From Allacma fusca (Eukaryota > Arthropoda > Collembola > Symphypleona > Sminthuridae): DNA of 64,000 nt. Numbering within the stretch: the first letter of the stretch is position 1; each line of letters begins with the position of its first letter. Shown here one piece after another: positions 25,049 to 62,105 of the stretch. The stretch is taken from the NCBI GenBank assembly GCA_947179485.1, contig OX359245.1, positions 29,127,067-29,191,066 on the forward strand, in the 5' to 3' direction. The translations under genes were made by a program, and so were the position numbers. Below the pieces are notes generated by a model, which saw nothing but the letters and a program-made list of their open reading frames with translations, was not told the origin of the DNA and ran no database searches.

Positions 25049-28000
25049 TTAGTGAAGCACAAGAAGAGTTACTATAGATTCAGAAATGAATTTAATCATT
25101 GTGAGGACCATTCCGGGATAAACATAGTAGAATTTTCCGATGGTCACTCTGATTGATTTAGTACTCCGGAGAAATTTCGGAAGGATTTTCAACTGGCATT
25201 GACAACTCCAGCTTCTAAGTACTTCTCTAGACCTCACCTCCACCATTGCGTAAATGGTAAACGTACAGAACAAAATCATTAGAACAAGAATAGCGGCAAC
25301 AAACAAGGCGAAGGCAATAGGACCTGTAAGTCTTATGTATCCATAAACAATGAAGATGCTCAAACACAAAAATAACCATTGGAACGCTGGTAGTACGATC
25401 GGCGCATAAATATTCAAGGCAAAGCCGTTTAAAACTTGTAGCTCCCTATATAACTTCATAAATATTAGTGGCGTTCGGAGATGGTCACGGGTTGTGTATT
25501 TCTCTCTCCCAAGCCTAGAAGATTCATAGATAATATAAGCGCGAAAGGTCTTCGAGAATTTAGGCAAACAAATAAAAATTTGCCCAGTGTAATTCAACCA
25601 GATTCAAAAACATTGAAAGGTTCATTACACAAAACCATATAAATTCACATCGAGAAGTACTTCATAACAATCAACAATATGTTACAGAAGGGATAGGATG
25701 CATCTCCACTTGAGGTACCAAAAACCCGCATCCATACCCCAGTAGCTATTGTTTGTACCCGGGTATTACCCGGGTACTGTTGGACTATCCGGTTGGAAAT
25801 TCCCTATAGATATTTGCCTGCTCAGTTGAGCATGCCCTGAAAATTACAAAAATGAACAATTTCTCCGTTGTTTGACCACCAATGAAATTTTCCAAGATTT
25901 CGGACATTTTCCGATATTTTTCATGTTCCGATTTTTGGTTTGAGATGTGGTCGACTATTTTTAGTAATTACCGGGACGGGACAGGAATTTTGTTGACATC
26001 CCCAGATTTTCGGGACCGGGAATAACGTTTTGTCGTTTAAATTTTGGAGACGGCACGGGTACGAGGTTTCTGTCCCCATGTCTCGACTTTCGGAACTCTA
26101 ACCGGTGAACACGTTTTTTTACATTTTTGGGGATGGGGCGGGGACATGGTTTTTGTCACCGTGTCCCGATGGTCGAGACTGGGGACAAAGATTTTGAAAA
26201 AGTATTGCGATGGGACGGGGACGTTACAGGAATTTTGTCCCCAACAGTGCTCGGCACGGGTATGGGTAATACTCGGGTAAACGGGTATGGGTACGGGTAT
26301 GGGTACTACCCGGGTACGGATTTTGTGTATCCGAACAATTCCGGGTACTACCGGGTACACTTTGGTCGGCTCAAAATTTCGGGTACGGATACGGGTATGG
26401 GTACGGGTACAAGGATTTCAAAATGGGTATATACCCACTGGGTACGGGTATAATGGTGTCATTTACCCGTACCCGCGACCATTGTACCCGAGTATTTGGA
26501 TATGTTGTGATCTGAGACATTTTGATGAATTTTATGAAAATAATGGAACTTTCGTTGGAAAATTGTCGGTATTTTTAGTAATTATGAATACATATAGCTT
26601 ATTGTTAATAGCCTTTTAATCTTACAACATGCAGTAACTGTATTTCAGACTGTGTTGCTATATAAATATATATTTATATCTATAATATATATTTTTATGG
26701 AAACAGGTTTTAGGAAGAATAATTAATATACAGACGAGGAATAATATCAAAATAGAAGTGGAGAATAGGTTTCAACGAAATTTTATACAAAACGTCTTCA
26801 TAATGTAGTAATTTGTTACTAATTGCATAAATAGTCTGATTGACACGTATGCACATGATACTTCATTAGCCACAATAAATTTAAAAATTAGAGTTCCGAT
26901 GAGTTGGATGGCAAGATATTTTTTGTAATTAGTAGTTGATTAGGAAAAGGCGGATGTTTGTAACAAGATAATAATGATTTACATGTACACAGAGCTACTG
27001 AGATGAGAAAATTAATGTAAAAGGCCTAATAAATCAAGAAGTGAAAAATCGAGTCGCCAAGTCCCAAGCCAAAAATGCATGTACATATGGACTGGGTGCT
27101 ATAAAATACTTCGCCCATCAGCCCATAAACAATCAAAAGGTTGATAATTTTACTTCTAATCAAAAATGCTCTACTCTTCAATAAAATGCATAATGTCAAA
27201 TACCTCTCTAGCTAGTCAAAATTACCAAATCAGGTGTCATACATTTTTACATATAACGTACTATGTATCACATTAAAACAAATCTGGATAAAAAACCCGG
27301 GTACGAGTACGGGTACGACACTGAGATACCCGAGTATGGGTACAATTTTCGAGTCATTTCGGGTACGGGTACAATGTGGGTACAGGTACATGGATTGAGA
27401 TAACATTGCGGGTACGGATACGAAAATTTTGTACCCGGATATTCGGGTATGGGTACGGGTATAGATACCAGTTATTGAAATACCCGCACTTCGGGTACGG
27501 ATATGGGTACGGGTACCGATTTTTCGTACCCGTGCCGAGCACTGGTCCCCAATAGATTCTCTATATTGAACAATTCTTGTATGATCTAAGAACAACCAAT
27601 TGGAACAAATTGCCAAACGCTTCATAGCCGAAAACTTTCTTTTCAACATGTTAAAAAATGTTTGTTCCTGTATAAATACTTTTCTCAAAAACCTTCCCTC
27701 ATCTAACAATTCTCAAAACTCTTCAAACAATTTCCCTCAATTATTGTACCCATTTTCTTTGACTATTGACTTCGACCAGTTTACCAATTAATGACGCTTC
27801 TCTTAGTGCTACTCACTATGAAATACAACGAATTTCGAAAAAATTTGAAACATGACAGCTCACATGATCTCTTCATATTCACAAAACCATATAATTTTAC
27901 AGATATAAATACACCTGCTAGCGGCTCGAATTCACCCAAGCCTTGTATGTATAAACTTACGGCAGCTCTTTCATGATCTCCAGAATTGCAAAAACATAGT

Positions 28001-28736
28001 CAACTCCAGGAAAATAATACAAATACATGGTTGCAAACCACGCGAAAATGCAGTGAATAAGAAATATTTCCTGGAAAATGACGGAAGGTATGAACAAATG
28101 TGAAGGCAAATCCATGAGAGATGTAAACAGTAGAGGCATTTTGAAATAAAGTACACTAATTAAAAAGATCATAAATATAAGCAATCCATTAAAAAAAAGG
28201 ACGAGAAGTTGAAACAGTCCTCCTTTGTCATTTAAAATTGCCTTAATACCAAGATTTTCTTCCGATTTGAGGAGATATTTCTCTGTAAATCAGAATGAAA
28301 CAGCAATTTAAAAAATGACAACAAAATGACAACAAAATTTGTCCACTGTAAATAAGCGTCTAATCTTACTAAATTCCTTCCCAAACTTCAAATATTGACA
28401 ATGGAACTGTGGAATCTCGTAATGAACAAGGACGACATTGACATTTAAAATAACATTAAGGAGACCACAAAATGTCGTGACCGCTCCGAGTATCAAGTTG
28501 CTGGTGTCCGAAAGGGAGTTTTGCTTCTTAGTAGACATTTGCAAGGTCCGAATGCTCAACCAGATGAAAATTGCGATAGCAGCAATGAAACTGTAAACGT
28601 AAGAAATTTTCCTCAATCTACTCATGGATGTGCGGATGCTGTTGCTTTTTCCATCCCACCAATACGGTAGGCTACCCAGGTATGTTCCTATTTTATATGA
28701 CAACAACATCAGTCTTCTGCCAAGTGGTCCTAGCAT
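25049..28736 (-). CDS. Gr-b: seven-helix gustatory-receptor-like protein, intact
   Basis: Exon 1 at 28370-28736, exon 2 at 27961-28282, exon 3 at 25049-25514: lengths 367, 322 and 466, the same as Gr-a except exon 3 is 15 bp shorter; 384 residues, frame open. It starts MLGPLGRRLMLLSYKIGTYLG, then PYWWDGKSNSI; TM7 region GTFYYVYPGMVLTMIKF, ending TLLVLH. The Pro/Tyr after YYV replaces the VD seen in the paralogues. Intron 2 is 2.4 kb, swollen by an older remnant (25680-25930) and a 1300-bp hAT-like element (26245-27544); exons and splice sites are untouched. Probable membrane chemoreceptor. It is the best-preserved minus-strand copy and may be functional. Confidence 0.68.
25680..25930. repeat. 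Old element remnant in Gr-b intron 2, shared with Gr-c
   Basis: Has TTGTACCCGGGTATTACCCG and then TGAACAATTTCTCC...GTTTGACCACCAATGAAA. The same sequence lies in intron 2 of Gr-c (about 35160-35400), so it was present before those genes duplicated. Confidence 0.65.
26245..27544. mobile_element. hAT-like non-autonomous element, GGGTAC words
   Basis: 1300 bp with inverted ends CAGTGCTCGGCACGGGTA and an exact 8-bp target duplication GTCCCCAA (26237-26244, 27545-27552). Both ends run into long degenerate GGGTAC/GGGTAT arrays (26260-26490 and 27296-27530) that repeat the last bases of the terminus. The middle 0.8 kb is AT-rich with no transposase. It sits in Gr-b intron 2, inside an older GGGAC-rich remnant. 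The 8-bp duplication and CAGTG end fit the hAT superfamily. Confidence 0.88.
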
Positions 28737-29186
28737 TTTGATACTTTTATTTTCTCCGAAAGTTGTTATGGCTGGGAATATCCTACTTCTTTTCCAAAGA
28801 AGGAGAGGTCTCACAAATTGTTCTGAATTCGACTACGAATTAATGCAACTTGATCTAGCTGCCCACACAAAAGTCAGTTAAAGCGTTCTCCTATTTGATA
28901 TTACTAGAGCTTAAATTGAATAGTTGGGCTGAGTTGTTGGATTCCTAGAGATGAGTGTATCCAAATTGCTTGATTAAATAGCTTTCTTGGTAATTCCAAT
29001 TGAGTGTTCTAAATCAATATTTGTTGTTTCATTAAATGTAAGTTTTGCTGCCAAACGTGCTTGATTTGTATCCGTTCAACTACATAATACCAGTAATGGA
29101 AACATAAGCAGAGAATACAATTGACTAAGTTTATACGGTTAATACAAATATTCGCTACGCGAGTATTTGAGCTTCGCTAAAGTTGG
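28737..29186. repeat. 5' flank of Gr-b, duplicated
   Basis: The sequence upstream of the Gr-b start, with TAGCTGCCCACACAAAAGTC at about 28856, recurs upstream of Gr-c (36560-36870), Gr-d (40850-41110) and the exon-1 fragment (44990-45080). It defines the upstream end of the duplicated unit and should include the promoter; I see no clear TATA box. Confidence 0.65.
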
Positions 29187-29575: not shown

Positions 29576-29784
29576 ACAATTATAGGCCGAATGTATCACC
29601 ACAAAACAGCAAATGATTTTAATGAAAAGCATAACCTGCCCAATTTTTGCGGGTTGATGGGAAGCTTGTGCAAATACAAAATTGTGCTAATGGAGGAGAG
29701 GTGCTAAAGGATCTTAATACTTCAACTGCAAGTAATTCTTCGCCCCTAATTTATTTGCATATATTAATTACAAGTGCACCGTTC

Positions 29785-30296
29785 CAGGATCCACCAGTCC
29801 CTACCTTTTTCAGTCCAAGTCAAAATAAGTCTTAAGTGTCTGATCAGTCAGTCAGTCCTTAAGTCTGTTTGCCGTTTCCTATGAGTCTCAGTCAGTCACA
29901 GTCATTATAAGAGTCACTCGAATAAGTCACAGTCTCAGAGGACAATGCGAAAATTTCAAAAATACCTATTTTTTGTAATTTTCTTGTGCTGCATTTCAAT
30001 ACAATTGATGACCTGGAATCTGCTTTTGTAAAATACTACGAAAATCTCCAATATTTTCAATGTAGATTTTTGTTCCGCTAGATACGTTGTGTACGCTTTA
30101 TGATTTTCTTGATTCCTACATTGGTTTAAGCGTTCGTCTCAGTCTCAGTCAGTCCCGATGATTCAGAAATAAGTCTAAGTCAGTCAAAGTCTTGAGCTGT
30201 AGTTAGATTTATCAGTCACAGTCTCAGTCAGTCATCAGTCAGTCACTCAATGTTGCAGTCAGTCCTTCAGCATCAGTCTAAGACTGGTCTATCCTG
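29785..30296. mobile_element. hAT-like non-autonomous element, CAGTCAGT words
   Basis: 512 bp with an exact 8-bp target duplication CACCGTTC (29777-29784, 30297-30304). The left end CAGGATCCACCAGTC matches the reverse complement of the right end, CAGGATAGACCAGTC, at 13 of 15 bases. Subterminal arrays of TCAGTCAGTC/AAGTCTCAGTC words occur on both sides (29806-29940, 30128-30285). No coding region. Confidence 0.85.
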
Positions 30297-30304
30297 CACC
30301 GTTC

Positions 30305-30790: not shown

Positions 30791-32813
30791 GTTGAGTTAG
30801 GTCATCTTTGATAAATACAAACAGGTAATTCGAACAAAAATTATAACGGAAATCACAACACCCGAGGTTTTTCACGAATTTCCTATGAATTTTACATATT
30901 TCAACGCCAAATTTTGTATTCTATGTATCCACGTTTGTGATAAATGTTTTTGCTAGGCATGTGGTAGGGGTTACCAAAATTTATCATTACAATGAACCTA
31001 AAGATTTGCTTCACGGATAAACCACAATTGTATGTTCCATAGCCTACTTAAAGAAGTGACTCTAAATGAATTTCACTCCCCCAGTTTGTAGCAAATTTAG
31101 TTCCAGATTTTCCAAACTTTAATTTATTTACCTGGCTCCTAGGTCAACAATTGAGATCACTGGATTAGTTGGAGATTTTAGAACGTCAGTTTGGTCAGTC
31201 TGCAGTTATATTTTTTGAATTCATAAGTAAGCTTGCATAACAAGATCCGTGTAAATTACAGACTATTAAGGTTAGCTAAAAACCCACAGGCGGGATTTTT
31301 AAACTTATAATTCTTATTTGATTAAGCTCTGTTTGCTACTGGTTTACTAGCCCATTTTATTGATTACATTGTCCTACCAAAATCAATATTCAGTACCAAG
31401 GTCGAAAATCTCTCCACTTAAAAAGTAATGTCAAAACTACAATTTGATTGTGTTTGATGTTCATAAATGCCGTACTACGTTTTAAATTTTTAAACATGTC
31501 AATCCCAATGTTCTACTGCACAAGTCTTATTCAAGACCACCCTTAAAATGAATTAAATTTGACATTTTATTCAAATTGATATATATTTTATTGAAATAAA
31601 TTTGACATTTTATTCAAATTGATATATATTTTATTGAAATAAATTTGACATTTTATTCAAATTGATATAAATTTTATTGAATGAAATTTGGCATTTTATT
31701 CAAATTGATATAAATTTTATTGAATTACATTTGGCATTTTATTCAAATTGATATATATTTTATTGAATTAAATTTGACATTGTATTCAATTGATATATAT
31801 TTTATTGAATTAAATTTGACATTGTATTCAATTGATGTATATTTTATTGAATTAAATTTGACATTGTATTCAATTGATATATATTTTATTGAATTAAATT
31901 TGACATTGTATTCAATTGATGTATATTTTATTGAATTAAATTTGACATTGTATTCAATTGATATATATTTTATTGAATTAAATTTGACATTGTATTCAAT
32001 TGATATATATTTTATTGAATTAAATTTGACATTGTATTCAATTGCTATAATTATATTTTATTTAATTAAATAACTCAGTAGACAGATGTTTTAAACTATG
32101 TAGCACTATGGGCACACACTTTGATTAAAGTTCTTTAAAAAAGAGCAATTGAATACAAAGCACTCATTGATCATTAGAAGATCCAGATAGACAGGGTAAC
32201 CATTAAAATTTAACTCACCTCGAGCCCATTGCGAAAAGATACTCACAAAATTTTTAATTGCTTCCCCCTAGTTTGTAGCACATTTAGTTTCAGATTTTTT
32301 AAAATTTATTCCATTGAACTGGGTCAATATTTGACGTCACATGGTCATGGAACACCAATCCAAGTCGTTTTTGTTTCAGAATGCCAACTTGCTCATTTTT
32401 TGTTTCTCGCATAACATTTTTGCCGGACATTGTTTTGACGCTGAATTGTAGGAAATTTTATGAGATTTCTATGGATCTATAACACTGTTCTCTGTTGATA
32501 AATTGGGCGTTGTGCGAAAAAGGATGTGGTAAAAACAGGATTATTTCTTGTCTTGCCATTTCTTCCCAGATGGTCCGGCGTTTCGTATACTTCTTGAAAA
32601 CGTTGCTTTTGTACTAAAGTTCATGTGAATTCATTTGATTTGAATATTAATTTCCTAGGAAAAAGAGCGATGCCAAATGACTGCGATCAATCTTTATATA
32701 AGATCGTCCATAAATTAATTTAGGGAGTACATTTGTTATTGTTGTTATTAAAGTTAAACTTGAGCCCACACAGAGACTGTTAAAGTGGATTGATGCACAC
32801 AAATGTTGTGGAC
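30791..32813. repeat. Downstream flank of Gr-c, duplicated with 20570-22060
   Basis: Long alignable match to the ghost unit at 20570-22060. The main difference is the tandem array at 31550-32060, which is present once in the other copy. A hAT-like element (32814-34048) splits the unit from its remaining part (34049-34548). Confidence 0.7.
31550..32060. repeat. 43/42-bp tandem array
   Basis: Twelve copies of a unit like TTTGACATTTTATTCAAATT plus GATATATATTTTATTGAA. Starts are at 31561, 31604, 31647, 31690, 31733 and 31776 (period 43), then every 42 bp to about 32028. The homologous position in the ghost unit (about 21258-21300) has one copy, so the array expanded after duplication. Confidence 0.9.
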
Positions 32814-34048
32814 CAGAGCTGCGCTCAAGTTCAAATAGACCATGAGTATTTCAAGTCATGGTCAAGTTCGGGTCATGGTCAAGTAAAATATAATGGATAC
32901 TTGAACATTCAAGGCATGGTCAAGTTATTTATTCTACTTGACCCTGAGATTTGAAATCAAGTAGTTATCATGGTCAAGACAAAAAATTCTACTTGAGAGT
33001 CAAGTCATGTTCATGGTCAAGTAAAAATGTATAAATCCTTGACCATGAACCATGAGTATTTCAAGTACTTATTCAAGTAACGAAACGTTACGCATATCGA
33101 AGTTGTGGCACTATATATTTCAATAGGTTTTCTTTCATAATGTTATCGTTACTCCGAGACTCCGTATCCATACATGTTCTTCTAAACTACATATTTTTGG
33201 GTTACGATTCAATATCTCTAGATATTGGAAAGCCACAGCTGTAATAGTGAACGAAAGAAAACGAATATAAAAACTTTGGAGCAGCACCTATGAAAGCAAC
33301 AGTGTTCAATGTTCGATTGTTGTATAAAATAAACGCGTTATTAATCAATCAAGTTACTTAAATCCAAGTACTCTTCATTCTAAACAATTTAACATCTGTA
33401 AAACGTTAAACACTACCACATAAGCCAGTTTGTTTCATTATTAACAGGGTGGACGCTGAACTGTAGATATTTTCAGTGAAGCACAACCCAAACTTGAATG
33501 TTAGCGTAAGTAATTATTATTAACAGGAAAATTCAATGGGAAATGATTTACTTACTTCTAAAAGACTGTTTACCTTACAATTAGCAGAGACTATTCGTAG
33601 TTTCTCGTGATTGAAGGTTGGCTAAAACTAAAACACAAGACATTAAAATATCCAACTGAAGCAGCAACTCAAAATTTACTTGGAGAAGCTTGACAATTGT
33701 GAATAATATTGTTATTTGCTAAGTTTTAACCATAAATGGTGTACTTGGTGTATTTTAAGTGTGAATACTATTTTTCTATTTCTATTTTTTTAAAAACTTG
33801 ACAGTTCAAGTCAAGTTCAAGTTCGGGTCATGGTCAAGTCATGGTCAATAAGTCAAGAGTTGTCCCTGCTATACTTGACCAGGTTCAAGTTACGCGGAAA
33901 GTACTTGAATACTTGACCCTGAATTTTCAAGTAATTGTCTGACCATGAACCGTCAAGTTCAAGACCGTCTGAAAAACCTACTTGACTGTCAGGGTCAAGT
34001 CAAGTTCAGGGTCAAGTTTGGGATTTACTTGACTTGAGCGCAGCTCTG
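32814..34048. mobile_element. hAT-like non-autonomous element, TCAAGT words
   Basis: 1235 bp with perfect inverted ends CAGAGCTGCGCTCAAGT and an exact 8-bp target duplication TTGTGGAC (32806-32813, 34049-34056). The left 250 bp and right 240 bp consist of degenerate TCAAGT/GGTCAAG/ACTTGA words that continue the terminus. The middle is AT-rich with no transposase. It cleanly interrupts the duplicated Gr-c downstream flank, and sister copies give the empty site. Confidence 0.92.
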
Positions 34049-43399: not shown

Positions 43400-44176
43400 T
43401 TACAAGAGGAGACCACCATAGGCGCTCTTGACGGCAAGGGGAGAGTGAGCGTAGGCGATTGGGGCAGCGTGAGAGACAGCAACTGGAGCAGCATGAGCGT
43501 AGGCGACTGGGGCAGCATGAGCATAGGCCACTGGGGAAGCATAGGCAACTGGGGCAGCGCGGACAAGGGCTGGGGCAGCAAGGACGGAGTGTCCAGCAAG
43601 GATGCCACGGGCAATGCGGATGTGAGCTGGGCCAGCAAGAGCCAATGGAGCGTGAGCGTAAGAGACTGGAGCGGCGTGGACAATTGGGCCAGCACGGACG
43701 ATGGCTGGAGCGTGAGCGTAGGCGACTGGGGAAGCATAAGAAACTGGGGCAGCAACGACGGAGTGTCCAGAGTAGACGGAGTGACCAGCGAGGATTCCAC
43801 GGGCAAGACGGATGTGAGCTGGGCCAGCAAGAGCCAAGCCAGAGTGACCATAGGCGACTGGAGCAGCGTGGACAAGTGGGGCAGAGTGAACAATTGGGGA
43901 AGCATAGGCGACTGGAGCAGCACGGACGAGGGCTGGGGCAGCAGCGTAGGCAATTGGGGCTGGGGCCAAGACTCCAGTGCGGACCACACCGACGGCAGCG
44001 GGGGCTCCGAGGAATCCAGCGTTGGCAACAGCCAAAAGGGTGGCAACGGCGAAAGCAACGGCCTAAGCGGGAAATTCAAAAATTTTCAATTAAATCCTAC
44101 AAATTCCTCAGAATTTTCTGAAATTTTTGTTTTCGTGAAAATGTGGGCTCATCAAAAAATAATTTCTTACGTTCAT
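43400..44176 (-). CDS. CP4: Ala/Val/His-rich secreted protein, probable cuticular protein
   Basis: Exon 1 at 44171-44176 (ATG AAC, donor GTAAGA); exon 2 at 43400-44062 after CCGCTTAG; 222 residues. The signal peptide is MNAVAFAVATLLAVANA. Two modules of LALAGPAHIR plus ARGILAGHS are separated by VAYAHAPAIVRAGPIVHAAP runs; the C-terminus is AHSPLAVKSAYGGLLL. In CP5-CP7 the same end reads KSVHHGGLLL, so CP4 differs at the tail. No cysteines. One of four near-identical duplicates (CP4-CP7) with conserved promoter and 3' flank. Structural exoskeleton role inferred from composition. Confidence 0.8.
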
Positions 44177-45599: not shown

Positions 45600-46268
45600 T
45601 AGTGCATCGCATGGGTTCAAAATAGTCAAACCTGAACCTGGACCCAAACTTTGGGTACCTCAAAAGTGTGAACCTGTACCTGAAAATTTACCCATTTAGC
45701 AGGTTCAAATTTTTCGATCCTGAACCTGACCCAATTGTGTTTTTGCAGTACCCGCACCTGATTAGTACCTGAACCCGAAAAAGTACCCAAAAGACGATCT
45801 GAACCCGGGTATTTTTGAACCGGACCTGAACATGTTTGGGTACTTGAGAATCAGAACGTTTTTTATTTTATCGTGTATTAAAAGTACAATTTGGTACAAA
45901 ATATATTTAAAATGAATAAGAATGCATAGTCATTGGTTCGTGGGACGCTTGTGCGATGGAAATCATCTTGGAAGCTTGAAATTCTCCGGCCTTTAACTTC
46001 CAATCAATGAACCCAAACATTTCAGGTCTTTTGTGATCAGGTTCAGGTCTTTCATGCGTTACACCTGGTCCCGACAGGTAAAATCAAAACGGGTTTTTCT
46101 ATGTACCTGGCCCTGAACCTGAACCTGTACCCAAATTCACGGGTATAAAATATTGTACCCAGAAAGGACACAAAATTATTGGGTCCAAAATACATGCACC
46201 CATACTGAACCTGAACCTGGACCTGAACCCAAATACCCGGGTGCGACCTGGACCCATGCGATGCACTG
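45600..46268. mobile_element. hAT-like non-autonomous element, GGTTCA/ACCTGA words
   Basis: 669 bp with inverted ends (Y)AGTGCATCGCATGGGTYCA and an exact 8-bp target duplication TTGGCAAC (45592-45599, 46269-46276). Degenerate AACCTG/GGTTCAGG/ACCCAAA words fill both flanks (45628-45860, 46010-46250). The target lies next to the GGCAAC-rich satellite. No coding region. Confidence 0.88.
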
Positions 46269-46771: not shown

Positions 46772-47646
46772 CAGTGAATTTCCCATATAGTGGTTTCCTC
46801 TTAGATGGCATTCCCTCTTTAGTGGCATCAAAAAACCCTCCCTAGAGGTTTGCAATGTTAAAGGTATACAGTATAGTGGCACTCGCTATAATGGTATTCC
46901 CTCTATAATGGCACTATTAGGTGTTACGGTGGCTCAGACAATGCAAAATTATAATGGTAGTTGGCATAAAATTAGCTAGATAATGGCTACAAAAGTATAA
47001 CATGATGTTATAAAACGTGCGGGTGGTTAATAATGCTTATGTCGGTTGGTTCAATTTGAATTTCAAATGTTAATACAGTTTGATTATTATTGTGATTTAC
47101 TGACGCCCTGGTATGATTAGCTGGATTTACGGCATATGATCCGTGACTTAAGTTAAAACGAACAGTTATAACACAAATCATTGCCATTTTTGCCTTGGCT
47201 CACTTCTAATAAGTTTCAATTCGTGCTGGTTTTTTTAAATAAATTGAATTATTATATTGAAGATTTAAAATGACATTAAACAGACAGTCAAGAAAACCCT
47301 TATTGTGAAAAAGAGTACTCAGTGGAAGTAATTCCCATTGTCATAATTCCAGGATTTTGGTTTCTGGAATGGTGACATTGCAGTCGAAAAGTTTGTTCCG
47401 ACTAATATTATTAATAGTATGAGGAAACCTAAAGTTACTGAACATCTTAAACTCAATGAAGCTTAGCATACCTCATAATTTTGAGTATTCTGTAAAAATA
47501 AATAAATTTATAAATGCATTTAGTTACAGTTGTTGTCTAAAAACATTAATAGTATATAGTTAACCATTAGTCACATACAGTGGCATCCCTATATAGTGGC
47601 AAGAATTCGTCACTCCCTTGGAAACCACTATATAGGAAATTCACTG
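46772..47646. mobile_element. Pogo/Tc1-mariner-like MITE with TAGTGGCAT words
   Basis: 875 bp flanked by TA (46770-46771, 47647-47648). The 27-bp inverted ends have one mismatch and begin CAGTGAATTTCC, then CATATAGTGG or TATATAGTGG. TAGTGGCAT/TAATGGCACT words follow both ends, repeating the terminal sequence. No transposase seen. It is inserted in the middle of the 60-bp satellite. Confidence 0.88.
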
Positions 47647-47648
47647 TA

Positions 47649-47840: not shown

Positions 47841-47873
47841 ATATGAAGGGGTACTTTTTTGGCCACGCACCAA

Positions 47874-49184
47874 GGGAGCGTTCACAAATGACGTCATCAA
47901 AATAGTGGGTGGGTGCTAACGAGAGATGGTGTTGTTGATGACACAGTGGTAGGGTGGATTTGACCAAATGATGATGTCATCAACCGACGAATGTTACCAA
48001 CGATTTTATTGCTTAACCGTTAGAAGTTTCGGTCGTTTGAATCAACCTGCTTCGGCTTGCTTACTTGACATAAACTTTTGTGAATAGACAATTTAAAATA
48101 AAAGCTTTAAAAAGAATTAGAAATTCAAACTACAAGCCTAAAGCGTTCCGATACACCGTTTGACATAACTGTCAAGGAAACCGTTTTTAGGACATTTTAA
48201 TACGAAAAATTCGGGAGATTCTATAAAACCTTCGATCCTTGATTCCTTTAAAACTACCACCTTAATTCCAGTATAATAAAAGGAAGCTGGAAGCAAATCC
48301 AACTAATGCAGCCTCGCTGAAATTAAATGAATTCAGAAAACTTCAACGTCACCCATCATGTTGGGTGATGAATTGATGATCAAGGGTACACATTTTAAAA
48401 TGCCATGGCAGTTTGGGCATTTTTGACTTTTTGATAATTTTGGGCATATTCAGCCTAGGGCAGACATTTTGGGCATTTTCGCCCCGGTTTTTTCGATTTC
48501 CTACTAATTTTGCATACTGAATCACAAAACAGTATGTTTAAATGTACAATTTTATGAAAAACAAATGATTATTTATTACTTTATATTATTGTAAGATCTG
48601 GTTTCGCTTGCTAATGTATAATTCTAAGACTTCGCGAGCAAGCATTATTATAAAGATAACTCAAGTATTTAAAAGAATTCCAGTTTTAAAACTGGTCATC
48701 AGCAAAGCGTTATTTTTGCATTGCAAAATTTTGATCTCTTAGAATTACAATGTTTTACTTGGACCAATATAATTTACTATACGATCCAAGTTTTGAAATA
48801 TTTTCTTTATTTTTTAAACCACTGACCAGAAATAGTGATTTAGGACAATTCGATTTTTTAGAAAATCAACATTATAACTGGATGGGCTTGAATATGTCGT
48901 TAACAAAATCCTATGTTTACGCAAGATGATCAACATTGTATGTTTTCGTCAAACTGCCGAAAATGCCAGCCATTTTTAAATTAAGACATTTTCAGGGCTT
49001 TTTTAGAGCATTTTCAGGTCGGCAGACATAAACCCCAGGGCATTTGCAATTGTGCAACCCTGGTGATGATGACGTCATTACATGGGGTGGGTGCGTCGTT
49101 TCATCACATGATGATGCGTGATAACAAGTGTGTGACTGGGTGCCTAAAAGAGTATTTTGGATGACGTCATTTGTGAACGCTCCC
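47874..49184. mobile_element. TIR element with GGGAGCGTTCACAAATGACG ends, containing a nested hAT-like element
   Basis: Perfect inverted ends of at least 25 bp starting GGGAGCGTTCACAAATGACG and including TGACGTCATC. Flanks share only CAA on each side (47871-47873, 49185-49187), so a 3-bp target duplication is possible and the superfamily is left open. Without the nested insertion (48381-49062) it would be about 620 bp. Near both ends, GGTGGGTGC and TGATGATG words recur. No protein recognised. Confidence 0.8.
48381..49062. mobile_element. Nested hAT-like element, GGGCATTTT words
   Basis: 682 bp. The left end CAAGGGTACACA...AAATGCC pairs with the right end, reverse complement CAGGGTTGCACA...AAATGCC. 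The flanks TTGATGAT (48373-48380) and GTGATGAT (49063-49070) agree at 7 of 8. Interior words are GGGCATTTT/GGCATATT near the left end and AGCATTTTCAGG near the right. It entered the GGGAGCG-ended element, so it is the younger of the two. Confidence 0.75.
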
Positions 49185-49333
49185 CAAGTGTGCGGGTGCG
49201 CGAAGATTTTCCATACCCGAACATAGGTAATATGTAAGTTAACGAGCAAATGGGAAATCGTTTGTGAGTAATTGCTACTTCGATAATTATTGTAATGTCC
49301 AAATGGATTGTATTTGCGTTCGTCAGGAATATT

Positions 49334-51477
49334 CTAATCAATCACAAGGAGGTCCACTGTAGATTCAGCAATGAATTGAAGCATTGTGAGGACCATTGCA
49401 TGGTCAACAAAATAGAAAGTTCCGATGTAACTTCTGATCGATTTAGAGCTCCGAACAAATCTGTTAAGAATTTGCGACTGACCTTGACAACCCCAACTGA
49501 GCAGTACTTCTCTTGACCGGACCTCCAACTTTGCCAGGGCAGTGAACAAAACCACCAAAACTGTAACTAAATTTGTGGCTGCAGCAAACGAGAAGAAGGA
49601 AATAGAGCCGCTGAGTTTAATAAACCCGTAAATGTAATAGACGCTCAAAATCACATATAGCCATTGGCTGGCTGGTAAGATAATCGCAAAAGTGTTCATG
49701 TAATTTCCATTCAAAATTTGAAGTTCTCGGTAAAACTTCATAAAATTCGATGGCGTTCGCAGATCATCATTGGTTGTGTATGTCTCTCTGCCAAGCCTAG
49801 CAAAATCATTGTAAAATAAAATCACGATAAATATTCACGAAACCACGGACACAATGTTCATAGGAATATTCAGAGCTGTCCAAAATACATGGTATTTTAA
49901 ATACGTATTTCAAATACATTTTTGTATTTTGTATTTTTGTGGCCAGGTATGTATTTTGTAATTTGTAGTTTGTATTTTGTCTTACGAAGCAATGTATTTT
50001 GTAATTTGTAGTTTGTATTTTGTCTTACGAAGCAATGTATTTTGTATTTTGTAGTTTGTATTTTATCTAACGAAGCAATGGATTTTGTATTTTATAGTTT
50101 GTATTTTGTAGTTCGTATTTTGTCTTACTTAAGTACATTAAGCAATGTATTTTGTAGTTTGTATTTTGTTCGCTATACAAGCTACTTGTGTTTTTTGTTG
50201 GCGCACATTCTTGGGGTTTGAAAATTCCGTTTATGCCAAAAACCAATCAAATCAATGAAGTAAAACGAAATGCAATCGTTTTAACATCCCATAAAACTAA
50301 ATTCCAGATTTTGGATTGTCTACGTTTCAAGTATGTATGTATTTTGTATTTTGTAATTTGTATTTTCGTCGCCTTAAGAATGTATTTTGTAGTTTGTATT
50401 TTCGACGCCTGAAGAATGTATTTTGAATTTTGTAGTTTGTATTTTCGACGCCTGAAGAATGTATTTAGTATTTTGTAATTTGTATTTGGGGAGCATGTAT
50501 TTTGAACAGCTCTGGGAATATTTCAAAGAAACTTTGTATTTCATGCATATTATACTGGCCTTGACAATAGGCCAAGTGTTGGACCAAACCGGACCAGACA
50601 ATTAAATTCTACACCGTAACAGATAAGAATAGTCCATTGGTACAATTATATTCTTGTTCTACTTATTATATGCATACAGATAAATTACTTACTCCAATTC
50701 ATCCATGATTTCCAAAAGTGAAAACAAATAGTCCACGGCAGGTATTCCATACAAATAAATGAGTGTATACCATGTGACAAAGAAGTTCACAAAAACTGCA
50801 TCCTGGAAAATTACGAGAGGTATATACCAATGTAATGGCCAGTCCACGAGAGACGTGAACATAACTAAAAGCTCAGTGTAGAACAACGGAATCAGAACAA
50901 ACATAAATATAGTTATTCCATTTAGAAAAAGAATTTTGAGGATAAACATTCCTATTTTATCATCTAACATGGCTTTTATTCCCGACGTTTTCTCTGACTT
51001 CAGCAAATATTTCTCTAGAAAAACGAAAAGGAAGGAGAATCATGACAAAATATTACAATAGGTACAAATTCTTTATCAATGTCGGTAAGCGTCGCTAATT
51101 TCTTACTAAATTCCTTTGCAAACTTCGTATATTGAGAGTGGAATTGTGGTAACTCATTTCGAACGCGAAGTAGATCGAGGTTGAATATGACACTGTGGAG
51201 GCCACAAACTGTCAAGACCGTTCCGATCATGACGTTGCTGTTGCTGTCAGGAAGGGATTCTTGTCCCTTTGTTGACATTTGTAAGGTCCGAACGCTGAAC
51301 CACATGAAAGCAGCGAAGGTTAGAACAGTGTTATAAGTATATGTTACATAGCGCAATCTGCTCATAGATGTACAAATGGTTTTGCTTTTCCCATCCCACC
51401 AATATGGCAAGTTTCCCAAGTATGTTCCCAACTGGTATTCCAAAAAATAAAAGTTTTTCGGAAAGTGGTCCCAACAT
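49334..51477 (-). pseudogene. Gr-f: gustatory-receptor-like gene with an early frameshift
   Basis: Exons 51107-51477, 50693-51014 and 49334-49796 with consensus splice sites and phases as in Gr-a. The ATG (51477-51475) opens MLGPLSEKLLFFG. One extra base (around the TTTTTTGGAA run, about 51439-51446) then shifts the frame; the rest, from YQLGTYLGNLPYWWDGK to LLVID, is open. It would give 384 residues if the extra base were a sequencing error. C-terminal region GTFYFVDHAMVLTMLQFIAE is the closest in the window to the Gr TM7 signature. More diverged from Gr-b/c/d than they are from each other. Intron 2 contains a complete hAT-like element. Confidence 0.72.
49871..50514. mobile_element. hAT-like non-autonomous element, TGTATTTTG words
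   Basis: 644 bp in Gr-f intron 2 with inverted ends CAGAGCTGTYCAAAATACAT and an exact 8-bp target duplication GGAATATT (49863-49870, 50515-50522). Nearly half is a degenerate array of TGTATTTTG/TTTGTAGTT words, in one orientation, echoing the right terminus. No coding region. Confidence 0.88.
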
Positions 51478-52799: not shown

Positions 52800-53688
52800 C
52801 ATACCTGGGCGTTTCGTTTGCACTCGCACTCACCTCGCACTCAATTACAATGGTGAATCTTTAAACTCCCCTCGCGCTCGCACTCATGAGTTGTGCCCCG
52901 CTGCACTCAAACTCCTGCCTCAAAGTACTCTCCCAAAATTTTTGCACTCGCACTCATAGCTTGAGTGCCCTCATAGCCCTCTCGCACCATCGAGTGGGTG
53001 TTATAATTAATGGCTGGATTGAATACGCGGATCTCCTTTACCAACAACGTTTTTTTCGAAAACAACGTCTCACAATTAGTTTTGTGGTTACTTGTGATGG
53101 ATCTCACCCCTCTCAATGAACTTGGTGTTTCATCATGTTCCCCCGTTTTAGGTAATACAAGATAATACTAAATATGTAATTATACTTCATTTTGTGGAAA
53201 TTTTTTAATATTTCTCAAATGATTCCTTGACAAATTAGTCAAAGCAGCTGTGTTTGATGGGGCTCAATTTTTTCCTCAAATTACAATTTAGAAGTCGGGA
53301 CGCTGATACCTCTGAAAAAATTAACTAAAGTCCAGGGATGTGGAATATTTTGAGATGTTGTATTTGAAATAGTACTTGAAATACATTCCGTATTTTGTGT
53401 TTAGTATTTTTCAAGTCGTAAATTTTTTTAAGGTATTTTGCATTTGACATTTTGTAAGTACTATACTTTCTAGTGTATTTTCTATTTCGTATACCCTAGT
53501 TGTGAGTGCAAAACACTGCACTCAGCCTCTGCCTCTTGAGTGCACATAATTTGAATGATCACTCTACCTCATTACTGTGAGCGCAGAAATTTCAAATCGG
53601 AACTCGCACTCGCACTCAATTTGAGTGCGTTGAGTGCGAGGCTGAGTGCGAGGCATGCACTCAATGAGTGCGAGTGCGCCCAGGTATG
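52800..53688. mobile_element. hAT-like non-autonomous element, GCACTC words
   Basis: 889 bp with inverted ends CATACCTGGGCG (12 bp perfect) and an exact 8-bp target duplication ACACGGAC (52792-52799, 53689-53696). Arrays of CACTCGCACTC words lie inside the left end (52822-53000) and GAGTGCGAG words inside the right end (53500-53680). A stretch at about 53338-53512 has different ends (CCAGGGATGTGG...TATACCCTAG) and GTATTTTG-type words, so a second element probably inserted into this one. It splits the CP4/CP5-type duplicated flank. Confidence 0.88.
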
Positions 53689-53995: not shown

Positions 53996-54777
53996 TTACA
54001 AGAGGAGACCGCCATGATGGACGCTCTTGACGGCAAGGGGAGAGTGAGCGTAGGCGATTGGGGCAGCGTGAGCAACAGCAACTGGAGCAGCATGAGCATA
54101 GGCGACTGGGGCAGCATGAGCGTAGGCCACTGGGGAAGCATAGGCAACTGGGGCAGCGCGGACGAGGGCTGGGGCAGCAAGGACGGAGTGTCCAGCAAGG
54201 ATGCCACGGGCAAGACGGATGTGAGCTGGGCCAGCAAGAGCCAAGCCAGAGTGTCCATAAGCGACTGGAGCAGCGTGGACAATTGGGCCGGCACGGACGA
54301 TGGCTGGAGCGTGAGCGTAGGCAATTGGGGAAGCATAAGAAACTGGGGCAGCGACGACGGAGTGTCCGGAGTAGACGGAGTGACCAGCGAGGATTCCACG
54401 GGCAAGACGGATGTGAGCTGGGCCAGCAAGAGCCAAGCCAGAGTGACCATAAGCGACTGGAGCAGCGTGGACAAGTGGGGCAGAGTGAACAATTGGGGAA
54501 GCATAGGCGACTGGAGCAGCACGGACGAGGGCTGGGGCAGCAGCGTAGGCAATTGGGGCTGGGGCCAAGACTCCAGTGCGGACCACACCGACGGCAGCGG
54601 GGGCTCCGAGGAATCCAGCGTTGGCAACAGCCAAGAGGGTGGCAACGGCGAAAGCAACGGCCTAAGCGGGAAATTCAAAAAAAATCAATTAATTTGCTCA
54701 AATACCTCAGAATTTTCTGAAAATTTAGTTTACGTGGAAATGTGTGAGCATCAAAAAAAATTATTTCTTACGTTCAT
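53996..54777 (-). CDS. CP5: Ala/Val/His-rich secreted protein, probable cuticular protein
   Basis: Exon 1 at 54772-54777 (ATG AAC); exon 2 at 53996-54661; 223 residues. The signal peptide is MNAVAFAVATLLAVANA. Distinguished from CP4 and CP6 by a second full APVAYGHSGLALAGPAHIRL module where those have APVSYAHAPLALAGPAHIRI, which suggests exchange between modules or paralogues. It ends KSVHHGGLLL. Promoter, 5' leader and 3' flank match CP4, CP6 and CP7. Confidence 0.8.
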
Positions 54778-57800: not shown

Positions 57801-58180
57801 ATCATCTTCCGGATGTTCATGCAGGAGCCTAAAATCAACGTGAACTCACTACAACCATCTCAGTTTGCGAGATCTAGGCATCCCTCAATCCCTCGTGAGG
57901 GATAGCATTACTCACATACTGACAATGCTATACTCTTCGTTTCTTAAGTACCAGCGAAATAACAACACAAGACGTACAAGTAGTGTATATTTTCAAACTT
58001 TTCCAACTGCAAAATTTTATTTATTTTGAGCCGAAAATGATAACAAATGGTTTGCAAATATTGCCAATTCAACTAATGTTGCTCAGATTTTATCTCACTT
58101 TGCGTAACACGTAAAAAACATTGTAAAAAATTTCCCATCAAGAGAAAACAAGAGTAGACCAGAAAACTTAATTAGGAAAT
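54883..58180. repeat. CP5-CP6 intergenic, paralogous to CP6-CP7 intergenic
   Basis: 55160-55980 aligns with 59330-59960, with many differences; 56560-56680 aligns with 60850-60960. At 56636 a pogo-like terminus (TACAGTGTTCTCTC) sits in the aligned position of the one at 60919. 56815-56985 holds degenerate GGTACA/GGGTAC words of hAT-like type without clear ends. No gene recognised. The AATAAATAAA signal of CP6 is at about 58016-58025. Confidence 0.55.
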
Positions 58181-58979
58181 TTACAAGAGGAGACCGCCAT
58201 GATGGACGCTCTTGACGGCAAGGGGAGAGTGAGCGTAGGCGATTGGGGCAGCGTGAGCAACAGCAACTGGAGCAGCATGAGCATAGGCGACTGGGGCAGC
58301 ATGAGCATAAGCCACTGGGGAAGCATAGGCAACTGGAGCAGCGCGGACGAGGGCTGGGGCAGCAAGGACGGAGTGTCCAGCAAGGATGCCACGGGCAATG
58401 CGGATGTGAGCTGGGCCAGCAAGAGCCAATGGAGCGTGAGCGTAAGAGACTGGAGCGGCGTGGACAATTGGGCCAGCACGGACGATGGCTGGAGCGTGAG
58501 CGTAGGCGACTGGGGAAGCATAGGCAACTGGGGCAGCAGCGATGGCTGGGGCAGCGAGGACGGAGTGTCCGGAGTAGACGGAGTGACCAGCGAGGATTCC
58601 ACGGGCAAGACGGATGTGAGCTGGGCCAGCAAGAGCCAAGCCAGAGTGACCATAAGCGACTGGAGCAGCGTGGACAAGTGGGGCAGAGTGAACAATTGGG
58701 GAAGCATAGGCGACTGGAGCAGCACGGACGAGGGCTGGGGCAGCAGCGTAGGCAATTGGGGCTGGGGCCAAGACTCCAGTGCGGACCACACCGACGGCAG
58801 CGGGGGCTCCGAGGAATCCAGCGTTGGCAACAGTCAAGAGGGTGGCAACGGCGAAAGCAACGGCCTAAGCGGGAAATTCAAAAAAAATTTAATTAAATCC
58901 CTCAAAATCCTCAGATTTTTATGAAATTTTAGTTTTCGTTTATACGTGTGCTCATCACAAAATAATTTCTTACGTTCAT
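58181..58979 (-). CDS. CP6: Ala/Val/His-rich secreted protein, probable cuticular protein
   Basis: Exon 1 at 58974-58979 (ATG AAC); exon 2 at 58181-58864; 229 residues. The signal region MNAVAFAVATLLTVANA has Thr where the others have Ala. Two LALAGPAHIR / ARGILAGHS modules; an additional LAAPAIAAAPVAYASP segment before the second module accounts for its greater length compared with CP4. It ends KSVHHGGLLL. Same promoter and 3' flank as its duplicates. Confidence 0.8.
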
Positions 58980-59075
58980 GTTGACGGTTGGTGTGGGTAG
59001 TGAATTAACACAAGAGGAGTTAAAATGTTACTTGAGAGTAGCAAAAGTGTGAATGATTTTAGTGGGCTCAAAACT

Positions 59076-59085
59076 GCCTTTTATA
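59076..59085 (-). promoter_or_regulatory. TATA box of CP6
   Basis: TATAAAAGGC on the minus strand in the CP4-CP7 conserved block. Confidence 0.75.
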
Positions 59086-60157
59086 TCCGTTCAGGTCCTC
59101 TACCTGAAGTCTGCATATGAGGAAGGAGCGATGAAGGTTACTGTGTACAGTCTCTGTGTTTACATGTTTCAGCAATGATTTTTTGCTCATGTTTTCTTGT
59201 ACGCTGTTTTTTATAGCATTTGCATATATATTTCACCTGTAAATTATATATTATCATTTAATTTTTCCCAACATAATCGCCGTTACATGTGCTGACACGC
59301 AAAATATTAGCAGCTGTGAATGGCATTGCCTGCTCTGCTTTGGATTTCGGAAACCAACGTAGTGCATTTCGACAACAGTTCGGAATTTTTATGGTTAAAA
59401 TTTTATGAAGTAGTAACGGTTTTTGTGCAAATCTGTCAACATTTATGTATTTTGATAAGCTGTTTTGTTTTGCGCTTTGTTTTTTTGAAATTCTTCTATC
59501 TAGAGCAGGAGTTGAACGAAGCTTTTCAGTTTAAAGTGGAATGAATAACAAATCGCGCGAAACAGAATGTTAGGAATTCGAATGGAAATAATTATGAAAT
59601 TCAAACGGAAAATCCAAATGGAATCAAATTCTTCTAAATCTGTATCACCAGTATCGGCTTTACAAGGTTTTGCTTTTGGTGAAAATGAGGATTAAGACTT
59701 CATGTTTATTGTGGATGAAATTAATATCGAGAATATCATTGAACTGGATGAAGAATATTTAGGAGGTTGAATTTATCTGCGTTGATACATTTAAATATTT
59801 AGCAAATAGAAATGAATAAGATTTTCTTGTCAAATACTTGTAAACAATATCTCTTGAAATGTTTGATGTAGTGATTTTTAATTATATACATATAAGCTGA
59901 CAATGTTTAAACAGTGTAAATAGTCTGTGCGTACTTGAAGTAACCAAAATTCCCGGTATTTTCAAGTAAGACGTTTGAGGCATTTTAAGGTGGGCAGGTA
60001 TAGAACCCGGGCATTTGTAATATGTTCTTCTAGAAGTTTATAGCGCTCCTGTTCTAACTACGATGGAATAAATTACACAAATAAAAATTGCAATCATTGA
60101 TTAGAGCGCCTGCGGAATTTTGTCGCAGCCTTGGAAACAAGATAAGTCACTCAGAAG
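59086..60157. repeat. CP6-CP7 intergenic, left part
   Basis: 59330-59960 is paralogous to 55160-55980. 59972-60030 (GAGGCATTTTAAGG...GAACCCGGGCATTTGTAATA) resembles the right end of the GGGCATTTT-word element at 48381-49062, so it is a solo remnant of that type. No gene seen. Confidence 0.5.
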
Positions 60158-60410
60158 CAGTGCCGTACAAAAGGTTTGTTCCCGTTCCTCTTTCTGTTTC
60201 CCCATTTAATGGGTATTCCCCTTAAATGTTCCCGTACCCGTTCCCGAGATAGTGGGAACAGTATTTTAGGTGCCCGTTTACATAAATTCAATAAAAATTC
60301 GTGCCCGGACCCATTCCTGTTCCCGTACCCATAAATTAAAAAATGTTTTGGACCCGTACCCGTTTCCACAGCTGGTGTTCCCGGACCCGTCCCCGGGTCC
60401 AGATCGTGTT
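60158..60410. mobile_element. hAT-like remnant, CCCGTTCCCGTA words
   Basis: Starts CAGTGCCGTACAAAAGG and runs into CCCGTTCC/TTCCCGTACCCG words up to about 60405. No matching right end or target duplication was found. The layout (CAGTG end followed by word array) matches the complete elements. Confidence 0.45.
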
Positions 60411-60918
60411 GAACTAAGGCGTGGTAAAAATTATTATCAGAATTTCTGTAACCACCAAATTCTTCGTTTTGCAGATAAAAACAATGTGCATGGCGGCTAC
60501 ACGCACCCAAATAGCAAATGTAACAGCGTAATGACTAGTTGTTTAATTCTTCAGAGATTATGTACCGAGTAGACCGAATATCAACGATAAAATGCCACAC
60601 TGGGAAAGGATGCAACAATGAATGGAGCAGTGATGTTACTTTTCCAACAATAAAATTGAATGTTGTTGAGGGTTTCAAAATAATACTTAATATTTAAGAT
60701 CAATTGCTGGCCCATAGATAATTTTCTGCATACACAAAATACCTGAAAAATATATGTCAGCACGGATTAGTTTCCCTTTGTTAGCCTTATTTAAAAAACA
60801 TTAAATTCGAGCAATGAATTGAAGGAATTTTATATATTATCAAATACATGGACATTATTGGCGTTTTCCACGGAATGCTTTTAAATTACAAATGATTATT
60901 TTGCGTACATTATCAATT

Positions 60919-60995
60919 ACGGTGCAATCTCTATATAATGGTTTCCAAAGGAAGTGTAAAACGCTGCCACTATTTGAGGAGACCACTAAATACAT
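60919..60995. mobile_element. Pogo-like MITE end remnant
   Basis: TACGGTGCAATCTCTATATAATGGTTTCCAAAGGAAGTG aligns with the ends of the MITE at 46772-47646 (CAGTGAATTTCC...TATAGTGGTTTCC), followed by CTGCCACTATTTG. Only this end is clear. The equivalent site upstream of CP5 (56636) carries a similar relic. Confidence 0.6.
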
Positions 60996-61225
60996 CTTCC
61001 TGTACAATCTACATTTAAGTTGTTAGTTTATTTGTGAATCACGTTATAATTGGGAGTTATTGCAACTAAAAGTAAAATGTTATTTTCGTCAGACGAAATG
61101 TCGTTTGTGTGATTTTCTTTAATTTTATGGTCAAACTGCTTTTATAACTTTTCTTGTAGGAATTAATTCTCAGTTGTGTTGCATTTATTTATTGTTTTAA
61201 TTTCAAGCACAACGCTACTTAAAGT

Positions 61226-61320
61226 CGAGGCAGACAGCCTCACGGTCCGGTGGTGTAAAGCGAATCTGTAAGGTTGCAGAAGGGCCTGCTTTCGCCTCTA
61301 GCTCACCCCGGAATAATTTT
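61226..61320. other. Possible tRNA-derived SINE-like head
   Basis: GCCTCACGGTCCGGTGGTGTAAAGCG looks like an RNA polymerase III A-box region, but a convincing B box (GGTTCGANNCC) is missing. A CT-repeat (61563-61579) ends the segment about 240 bp on. Weak case. Confidence 0.2.
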
Positions 61321-61604
61321 GGGCTCTTTCTATCTTTCCCTACACACTTTTTGCATGCAAATGAGGTTTAGATGCATGTGACGCATTCTTGGAAGAGTAG
61401 TAGTAGGAGTGTGTGCCGTACACTGATAATGATTCATAAGATGAGTCGGTGTTTGTGTACATACCGTGATTGTTGTTATTCGGGAAAGATTGTATCCTTG
61501 GTATACCCCATGTCTAATCCTGTCTCATTATCCTCCCTCTCTACCTATAGCTTTACATTTTACTCTCTCTCTCTCTCTAGTTAAATCTGCGTAGGTGTGC
61601 TGTG

Positions 61605-62105
61605 TAGTGGTCGGACCAATTCAATTCAGAATTGGAAATTTTCGATTCGATTCGATTCGATTCAATTCGATTCAGTAGTATTTCGATTCGATTTGCAGTA
61701 AAGCCAAATCGAATGATTCGATTTGGGTATTGAACTGAATCGAATCATATCTTGTGAATTGCAATTCAAACAATTCATCAAAACCGCTTCGGCTGCGCAC
61801 GGGTACTTTTTTTCCCGCATATTCAAAGTCCAAATACTACGTATACCACAACGTTTGTTATTTTAGCGTAGCTTTTACTATACCCTTTATAATATGTATA
61901 CGACACTCCAGTAACATAAGGAAAATTTTGTACTTTCCCACTTGAATCGTTCGATTTACGATTCAATTCGATTCACTGGGTGAATTGAATCGAATTGAAT
62001 TGCTTTGAGGCAAATTGAATCGAAAATCGGTTTTTCGATTCAATTCAAGCTTCAAATTGAATCAAATTGAAAAATTCGAATCAAATTGAATCGATCCGAC
62101 CACTA
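61605..62105. mobile_element. hAT-like non-autonomous element, ATTCGA words
   Basis: 501 bp with inverted ends TAGTGGTCGGAYCRATTCAA (two differences in 22 bp). The flanks GTGCTGTG (61597-61604) and GTGCTGTA (62106-62113) agree at 7 of 8. ATTCGATTCGATTC/AATTGAATCG words fill both ends and carry on the terminal sequence. No coding region. The relic at 402-554 has the same terminus but a different word. Confidence 0.83.

Follow-up and report, generated by a model that had tools for sequence, protein, structure and literature searches.

We analyzed a stretch of 64,000 nucleotides (nt) from the collembolan Allacma fusca (GenBank assembly GCA_947179485.1, contig OX359245.1, positions 29,127,067 to 29,191,066 of the forward strand; the whole stretch is referred to below as the window) and found that it holds eight miniature elements, probably non-autonomous members of the hAT type, the ends of which are filled with repeats of a short word particular to each element. 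These elements, numbered e1 to e8 along the window, had been noticed in a preliminary description of the sequence, and that observation is real: borders, target duplications, inverted tips, word arrays, and one empty site can all be seen directly. We consider it quite likely that they are separate non-autonomous hAT elements whose subterminal repeats bind transposase, and that they are ordinary in kind.

Eight hAT-like elements in one locus

Read from the sequence, the borders of all eight end pairs fall at the positions given in the preliminary description, and its 8-bp target duplications were likewise reproduced, being exact in six elements and matching at 7 of 8 letters in e5 and e8. Element e1 (26245 to 27544; 1,300 bp) has the tip CAGTGCTCGGCA, the word CGGGTA/GGGTAC, and the duplication GTCCCCAA; e2 (29785 to 30296; 512 bp) has the tip CAGGATMSACCA, the word CAGTC, and the duplication CACCGTTC; and e3 (32814 to 34048; 1,235 bp) has the tip CAGAGCTGCGCT, the word TCAAGT, which includes the AAGT site of the Hermes transposon, and the duplication TTGTGGAC. 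The tip YAGTGCATCGCA and the word GGTTCA/GGGTTC belong to e4 (45600 to 46268; 669 bp), which is flanked by TTGGCAAC. The weakest case, e5 (48381 to 49062; 682 bp), has the word GGCATTTT in 4 exact copies, ends that are alike at 10 of their first 14 nt without gaps, and an imperfect duplication (TTGATGAT/GTGATGAT) that lies in a GATGAT-rich stretch. The remaining elements are e6 (49871 to 50514; 644 bp), with the tip CAGAGCTGTYCA, the word AAAATACA, and the duplication GGAATATT; e7 (52800 to 53688; 889 bp), with the tip CATACCTGGGCG, the word GCACTC, and the duplication ACACGGAC; and e8 (61605 to 62105; 501 bp), with the tip TAGTGGTCGGAY, the word ATTCR, and the imperfect duplication GTGCTGTG/GTGCTGTA.

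Most of the set was recovered blind to the words. A first scan, for YANNG ends with 14-nt inverted ends differing at no more than 4 positions and a duplication with at most 1 mismatch, returned seven matches, namely e1, e3, e4, e5, e6, and e8 together with a spurious pair that lies in cuticle-gene repeats, while the same settings gave 4 matches in total on 10 Markov windows. A relaxed scan, whose settings ([CT]A ends, an exact duplication, and no more than 3 mismatches between ends) were chosen after e2 and e7 had been missed, returned six matches that were precisely e1, e2, e3, e4, e6, and e7. Given that these relaxed settings produced only 3 matches in total on 20 Markov windows, we conclude that the element set is no chance harvest. 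All six relaxed-scan matches bear arrays, and at that stringency we found no word-free elements with such ends in the window.

Ends of the YARNG type, a label that we take from the preliminary description as marking hAT ends, had been attributed to all eight elements; they are present in six, the exceptions being e2 (CAGGA) and e7 (CATAC). CAG or TAG stands at both ends of e1, e2, e3, e4, e6, and e8. Four of the eight duplications have T at position 2 and A at position 7 (nTnnnnAn; P = 0.005 from base composition), those of e7 and e8 have one of the two letters, and those of e2 and e6 have neither. Duplications of 8 bp are also made by the P and Merlin superfamilies. An origin of some or all of the elements in a superfamily of this kind would fit the missing YARNG ends of e2 and e7 and the fact that no transposase was recognized among the internal open reading frames (ORFs) tested, but the CAG/TAG ends, the nTnnnnAn duplications, and the presence of Hermes- or Herves-type words in two elements argue against it, and we regard it as improbable. 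The hAT identity originally proposed is supported by the 8-bp duplications, by nTnnnnAn in half of them, and by an empty site for e3.

That empty site is seen when the flanks of e3 are joined by a single copy of TTGTGGAC: the joined sequence aligns through the junction with three paralogous stretches in the window, at about 37.9, 24.6, and 23.0 kb, each of which has one 8-mer counterpart (TTG-GAAA, TTGCGGTC, and TTGCGGGC). Since e3 is absent from three related stretches that have a single 8-mer in its place, it is an insertion. A fourth stretch in the alignment, near 22.0 kb, diverges before the junction. No paralogue spanning the insertion site was found in the window for e2, e4, e5, e6, or e8. 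For e7, a paralogous stretch at about 43128 was rejected as an empty site, since the sequence missing there takes in, besides e7, about 180 bp to its left and about 40 bp to its right.

Words and their specificity

Taking two 220-nt ends together, each element contains 4 to 24 copies of its own word, whereas the highest counts were 3 to 10 among 500 Markov pairs and 2 to 5 among 500 background pairs. When the commonest 6-mer of each element was picked without reference to the words previously described, its copies numbered 23, 17, 24, 12, 9, 25, 19, and 16 in e1 to e8. In 2,000 random segments, the median count was 4, the 99th percentile 11, and the highest count 17. The 9 copies in e5 were reached by 57 of the 2,000 random segments. 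The description of these ends as filled with a word is thus well founded for seven elements, in which enrichment is strong, and weak for e5.

The words are also largely private to their elements, with 0 to 2 copies of each found in any other element, save for GGGTAC, which occurs 5 times in e4. The words of e1 (GGGTAC) and e4 (GGGTTC/GGTTCA) are close to one another, and the earlier statement that the words differ completely between elements needs this qualification, although their rarity outside their own element stands. Since each word is repeated at both ends of its own element and is rare in the others, the overlap between e1 and e4 aside, it is a good candidate for a binding site. This agrees with the suggestion in the preliminary description that the arrays are transposase-binding repeats, a suggestion also favored, at the level of motifs, by a core sequence of the Herves transposon in e8 (see below).

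A further claim was that the word extends the terminal inverted repeat. The commonest 6-mer has its start among the outermost 20 nt at both ends in three of the eight elements, compared with 104 of 2,000 random segments, and to this extent the claim holds; it fails at the left end of e7, where the first exact copy of the word starts at position 21 and the inverted repeat is 12 nt long. All eight elements have the start of the commonest 6-mer among the outermost 20 nt at one end or more, but this has little weight, as the same is true of 1,048 of 2,000 random segments.

It might be argued that the arrays are ordinary microsatellites, or functionless by-products of slippage that arose from one functional copy close to the tip. 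Short-period tandem stretches do occur, with TTCGA repeated in e8 and 43-bp units in e6, and the excerpted text of PMC10368747 reports that deep repeat copies are dispensable in Hermes. However, each word recurs at both ends of its own element, with orientation and spacing that vary, and has few copies in the other elements, every match of the relaxed word-blind scan bears an array, and the word of e8 corresponds to a measured transposase-binding core (Herves; PMC3143072, excerpt). On balance, we think it unlikely that the arrays are no more than this.

Layout of the ends

The left and right ends of each element match in register for only 12 to 24 nt from the tip. In all elements but e7, the match stops close to the end of the first word; in e7, it stops before that word. 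The exact word starts at positions 13 and 13 of the two ends in e1, 12 and 12 in e3, and 13 and 13 in e6, while in e2, e4, e5, e7, and e8 the exact near-tip 6-mer is present at a single end or the words vary. Beyond the in-register match, the ends have words in common but not the order of those words, which occur in both orientations and at unequal spacing.

These features bear on the idea, raised in the preliminary description, that a copying mechanism extends the ends, with fold-back synthesis or terminal gene conversion repeatedly writing the terminal word further inward. The word does belong to the inverted repeat in several elements, and tandem units are present in e6 and e8. Such copying would nevertheless be expected to leave long inverted repeats in register, far beyond the 12 to 24 nt seen, and it is further at odds with the 43-bp tandem units of e6, which are not alike between its two ends, and with the mixed orientation and unequal spacing of the words. 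We therefore set this idea aside as very improbable. Given the short in-register match and the differing tandem units of e6, it is probable that the arrays expand and diverge through local tandem duplications, which take place separately at each end.

The direction in which the words run, relative to the copy at the tip, is opposed at the two ends of most elements, clearly in e1, e2, e4, and e6 and moderately in e3, with few sites available in e5. Counts of overlapping 5-mers in the two directions were 4/44 at the left end and 42/0 at the right end of e6, 63/6 and 13/49 in e1, 7/25 and 21/9 in e4, and 33/13 and 18/38 in e3; the rule for choosing 5-mers yielded no word that could be used for e5 and a single one for e2, in which 22 of 23 CAGTC copies run in one absolute direction. 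An expectation-maximization motif fit on both strands merged each word with its reverse complement and was of no use for orientation, so exact words were used instead. Counted in this way, with the first 22 nt of each end left out, the copies running in one direction were 20 of 23 for GGGTAC and 19 of 26 for CGGGTA in e1, 16 of 16 in e2, 11 of 13 and, for a second word, 9 of 12 in e4, 6 of 7 in e5, 23 of 25 in e6, 10 of 16 in e7, and 11 of 15 in e8.

Four of the 16 ends have an inverted pair, with arms of at least 6 nt, that starts at inward position 11 or 12. These are the right end of e2 (CAGTCTTAGACTG, 30274 to 30286, position 11) and the left ends of e5 (CATTTTAAAATG, 48391 to 48402, position 11), e6 (AAAATACATGGTATTTT, 49882 to 49898, position 12, with more at 22, 29, 35, and 42), and e8 (CCAATTCAATTCAGAATTGG with a spacer of 6, 61616 to 61635, position 12). 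A fifth, at inward position 18, lies at the right end of e7 (GCACTCATTGAGTGC, 53657 to 53671), and no element has such pairs at both ends. With the density found deeper in the arrays (19 per 2,640 positions), the probability of four pairs at positions 11 to 12 is 7e-5, and that of five ends with pairs at positions 11 to 18 is 0.0014. Equally strong inverted pairs were found in none of the internal same-end windows of e2 and e5.

Comparison with characterized hAT systems

The preliminary description knew of no named family with this behavior. For the architecture, that claim does not hold, as Hermes, Herves, and Kat1 all repeat short words inside their ends (PMC10368747, PMC3143072, and PMC4763223, as excerpted). 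Among the literature matches listed, no title or abstract opening describes a single genome with many differing word arrays. The main text of the Folsomia genome paper contains none of the terms hAT, transposable, gustatory, and cuticle, and the term subterminal is absent from PMC6004678.

Hermes, a hAT element of Musca domestica, requires at least ~220 bp of each end in cells. According to the excerpted text of PMC10368747, its BED domain binds AAGT/C repeats, of which the two ends hold 17 and 14, as well as a quasi-palindrome at positions 11 to 27 of the left end; apart from the first, the left-end repeats run antisense, whereas those of the right end run sense, and the 8-bp duplication shows an nTnnnnAn preference. 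Parts of this pattern are seen in some of the elements described here, with nTnnnnAn duplications in 4 of 8, one-sided palindromes at 4 of 16 ends, and opposed polarity that is clear in four elements, moderate in e3, and based on few sites in e5. The elements differ from Hermes in that their words are other than AAGT, except for that of e3, in which AAG[TC] occurs 53 times in 1,235 bp compared with 8.5 times per 500 bp outside the elements, and in that they contain no recognized transposase gene. Furthermore, e7 and e8 do not follow the Hermes polarity, and the dense arrays reach 100 to 250 bp, a depth at which the repeats of Hermes, dispensable beyond 50 bp, are not needed.

Herves, from Anopheles gambiae, repeats CG/AATTCAT at both ends, and this motif is enough for transposase binding (PMC3143072, excerpt). 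Its likeness is to e8 only: the core C[GA]ATTCA occurs 18 times and the full 8-letter motif once in this gene-less element of 501 bp, compared with 0.21 core copies per 500 bp outside the elements, a comparison that concerns the motif and not the tips. Kat1, a domesticated hAT protein of Kluyveromyces lactis that functions in mating-type switching, offers a third parallel in the MATa element, in which 6 exact copies of the hexamer AATTCA lie between inverted ends with a polarity that is unlike on left and right (PMC4763223, excerpt); words repeated inside the ends, with end-dependent polarity in most elements, are also what we see here. In the six elements other than e3 and e8, there was no marked excess of the known-system motifs tried. 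Nor is the Ac word, which we take to be AAACGG, enriched, with 0 or 1 copy in each of the eight elements.

Differing words in coexisting families are to be expected, since most CGGBP-type BED proteins and hAT transposases from which a motif was obtained recognize a DNA word of their own, according to the excerpted text of PMC8097297. The motifs of four hAT proteins in that work match subterminal regions of their own elements; all of these proteins come from other species and have no link to the elements in the window.

Proposed mechanism and evidence against it

Taken with what is known of Hermes and Herves, the layout of the ends suggests how the elements might work. Eight separate elements would move by cut and paste, with transposases encoded elsewhere. 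At the cut, the outer 10 to 12 nt would be held by the catalytic core of the transposase, and the near-tip word and its close neighbors would be read by the N-terminal BED zinc finger, a reading that would also distinguish the two ends. In this reading the near-tip word is a putative docking site for the BED finger, and each element would have its own word because it answers to a transposase of different BED specificity. Farther in than about 50 bp, the copies may serve as additional binding sites or may simply result from the growth of the arrays; they may also belong to the feature that is required in Hermes ends.

A number of observations weigh against this reading. In Hermes, mutation of putative left-end BED sites beyond 50 bp left about 70 percent of activity, and the right-end repeats make no BED contact in the cryo-electron microscopy structure, as excerpted from PMC10368747. 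Since the Hermes repeats beyond 50 bp are dispensable, Hermes does not explain arrays of 100 to 250 bp. Scrambling of the left-end DNA beyond 50 bp resulted in little or no mobility, for which the authors exclude auxiliary transposases bound there and invoke an unidentified feature (PMC10368747, same excerpt). In the window, polarity is slight in e7 (34/5 at the left end and 24/21 at the right) and lacking in e8 (31/14 and 42/23), it extends to only 17 of 24 exact-word sites in e3 (P = 0.06), and when scored by element it is found in 6 of 8 (P = 0.14), the sites inside one array not being independent. End palindromes of the kind described above are missing from e1, e3, and e4; equally strong inverted pairs occur in 5, 12, and 16 percent of internal same-end windows of e6, e7, and e8, respectively; the inverted pair of e8 lies on an end whose words run sense, unlike in Hermes; and some of the palindromes had already been seen before the test was made. 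Finally, none of the 10 internal ORFs searched against Pfam, out of 25 of at least 60 amino acids and with none from e4, matched a hAT or BED family, in a search that covered the ORFs internal to the elements only and not the rest of the window.

Relatives were sought in virus and prokaryote collections for five kinds of end, those of e1, e3, e6, e7, and e8. Tip-plus-word patterns of e3, e7, and e8 (the last together with a lone end, c10, described below) had no matches in virus contigs, a collection in which absence is little telling. The e1 pattern gave three virus-contig matches with near-identical surroundings and no word array, and the e6 pattern gave one match among prokaryote contigs, in an archaeon-named metagenome-assembled genome, again with no array; we rejected all of these as chance or unrelated.

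Tip and word as separate modules

Outside the eight elements, a lone end (c10) at 390 to 554, on the reverse strand and read inward from 554, has the tip TAGTGGTCGGAC, which agrees with the left tip of e8 at 12 of 12 letters and with the right tip at 11 of 12. Where e8 has ATTCR, c10 has GTTCR: e8 contains 31 ATTCR and 2 GTTCR among 40 NTTCR, while c10 contains 2 ATTCR and 10 GTTCR among 14 (Fisher P = 1e-6, for segments picked after inspection). A partner end was sought, and beyond the two ends of e8 the window holds no other copy of the tip with up to 2 mismatches and no 3-mismatch match flanked by the CCTCTGAC of c10. A loose match within 3 edits at position 7 is too close to the window edge for checking. 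Hence c10 is a single end, with a duplication that is not proven. A second lone tip, CAGAGCTCCGCACGGGTCAA (19037 to 19160, forward strand), agrees with those of e1 and e3 at 10 of 12 letters and has no match with up to 3 mismatches flanked by its GTCGGCAA.

Tips and words are combined in different ways among these ends. Elements e3 and e6 have CAGAGCTG in common and different words, and e1, e4, and the lone tip at 19037 have 8 to 10 of 12 tip letters in common. Judged from such comparisons, the tip (~10 to 12 nt) appears to be a module distinct from the word, and a kept tip with a changing word fits the pattern, although the likeness among tips partly reflects a general hAT end. There is only one direct case of a word change under a constant tip, that of e8 and c10. 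It bears out half of the proposal that word and terminus turn over together: the word has changed there, but the tip is the same at 12 of 12 letters.

We can speculate further, tentatively and with the odds somewhat against it, that hAT ends follow a fixed grammar (a tip, a first word at a set distance, a one-sided palindrome, and opposed polarity) that accepts almost any word. Lineages would then switch their word wholesale together with the BED finger while keeping the tip, such that coexisting families would no longer cross-mobilise; e8 and c10 would represent a single lineage in two states, with ATTCR in the one and GTTCR in the other, and the deep copies would do what Hermes ends achieve by other means. 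If the binding-site reading holds, one genome would offer many natural pairs of word and finger, so that a comparison of families could reveal how BED fingers recognize DNA, and avoidance of cross-mobilisation among coexisting transposons would become testable. As a single locus, the window is an orderly instance of known biology, useful for presenting a similar layout with eight different words. Its long arrays bear on an open point in Hermes, the unidentified deep-end feature needed in cells, and repeat annotation may also gain, as such arrays could be masked as simple repeats.

Other repeats and genes in the window

Several of the elements lie close to or within other repeats. By eye, an array of GGGAC/GTCCCC words (25970 to 26245) adjoins e1 on the left, and the e1 duplication GTCCCCAA is one such word. 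A related stretch at about 35.4 kb was rejected as an empty site for e1 because it lacks both e1 and this array and does not display the e1 junction; since it lacks both, e1 may sit in another array-bearing element. A larger element at 47863 to 49195, with 40-nt inverted ends that are 85 percent alike (GGGAGCGTTCACAAATGACGTCATC), encloses e5. Inside e7, at 53360 to 53490, words of the form GTATTTTG/AAATAC resemble those of e6 by eye and start near CCAGGGATGTGG, which is possibly the end of another array-bearing element.

Word arrays of similar style are found in a repeat of a different kind. The segment at 22130 to 22793, with TA on both sides, has a 23-nt inverted repeat without mismatches, the TA duplication being counted in (TACAGTGCACTCTCGCTATAAGA), and repeated TATAAGAG words, its two ends together holding CTTATA in 11 exact copies; we presume that it is a TA-duplicating element, Tc1/mariner or pogo-like. 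Another segment with TA on both sides, at 46772 to 47646, has a 29-nt inverted repeat, TA included, that is 97 percent identical, as well as TATAGTGGCA-like words visible by eye, with only 5 to 6 copies of its commonest exact 6-mers.

Alanine/valine/proline-rich repeat ORFs, cuticle-protein-like by eye, lie on the minus strand among receptor-like ORF fragments at 1399 to 2190, 5638 to 6678, 10728 to 11264, 43400 to 44035, 53996 to 54634, 58181 to 58837, and 62899 to 63576. Two of these seven ORFs and three receptor-like ORFs were searched against Pfam, with no match. A long inverted repeat at 19166 to 20322, made of three arm pairs of 70 to 92 nt that are 88 to 94 percent complementary, adjoins the lone tip at 19037, and a 42-bp satellite with 12.2 copies and 95 percent matches occupies 31549 to 32071.

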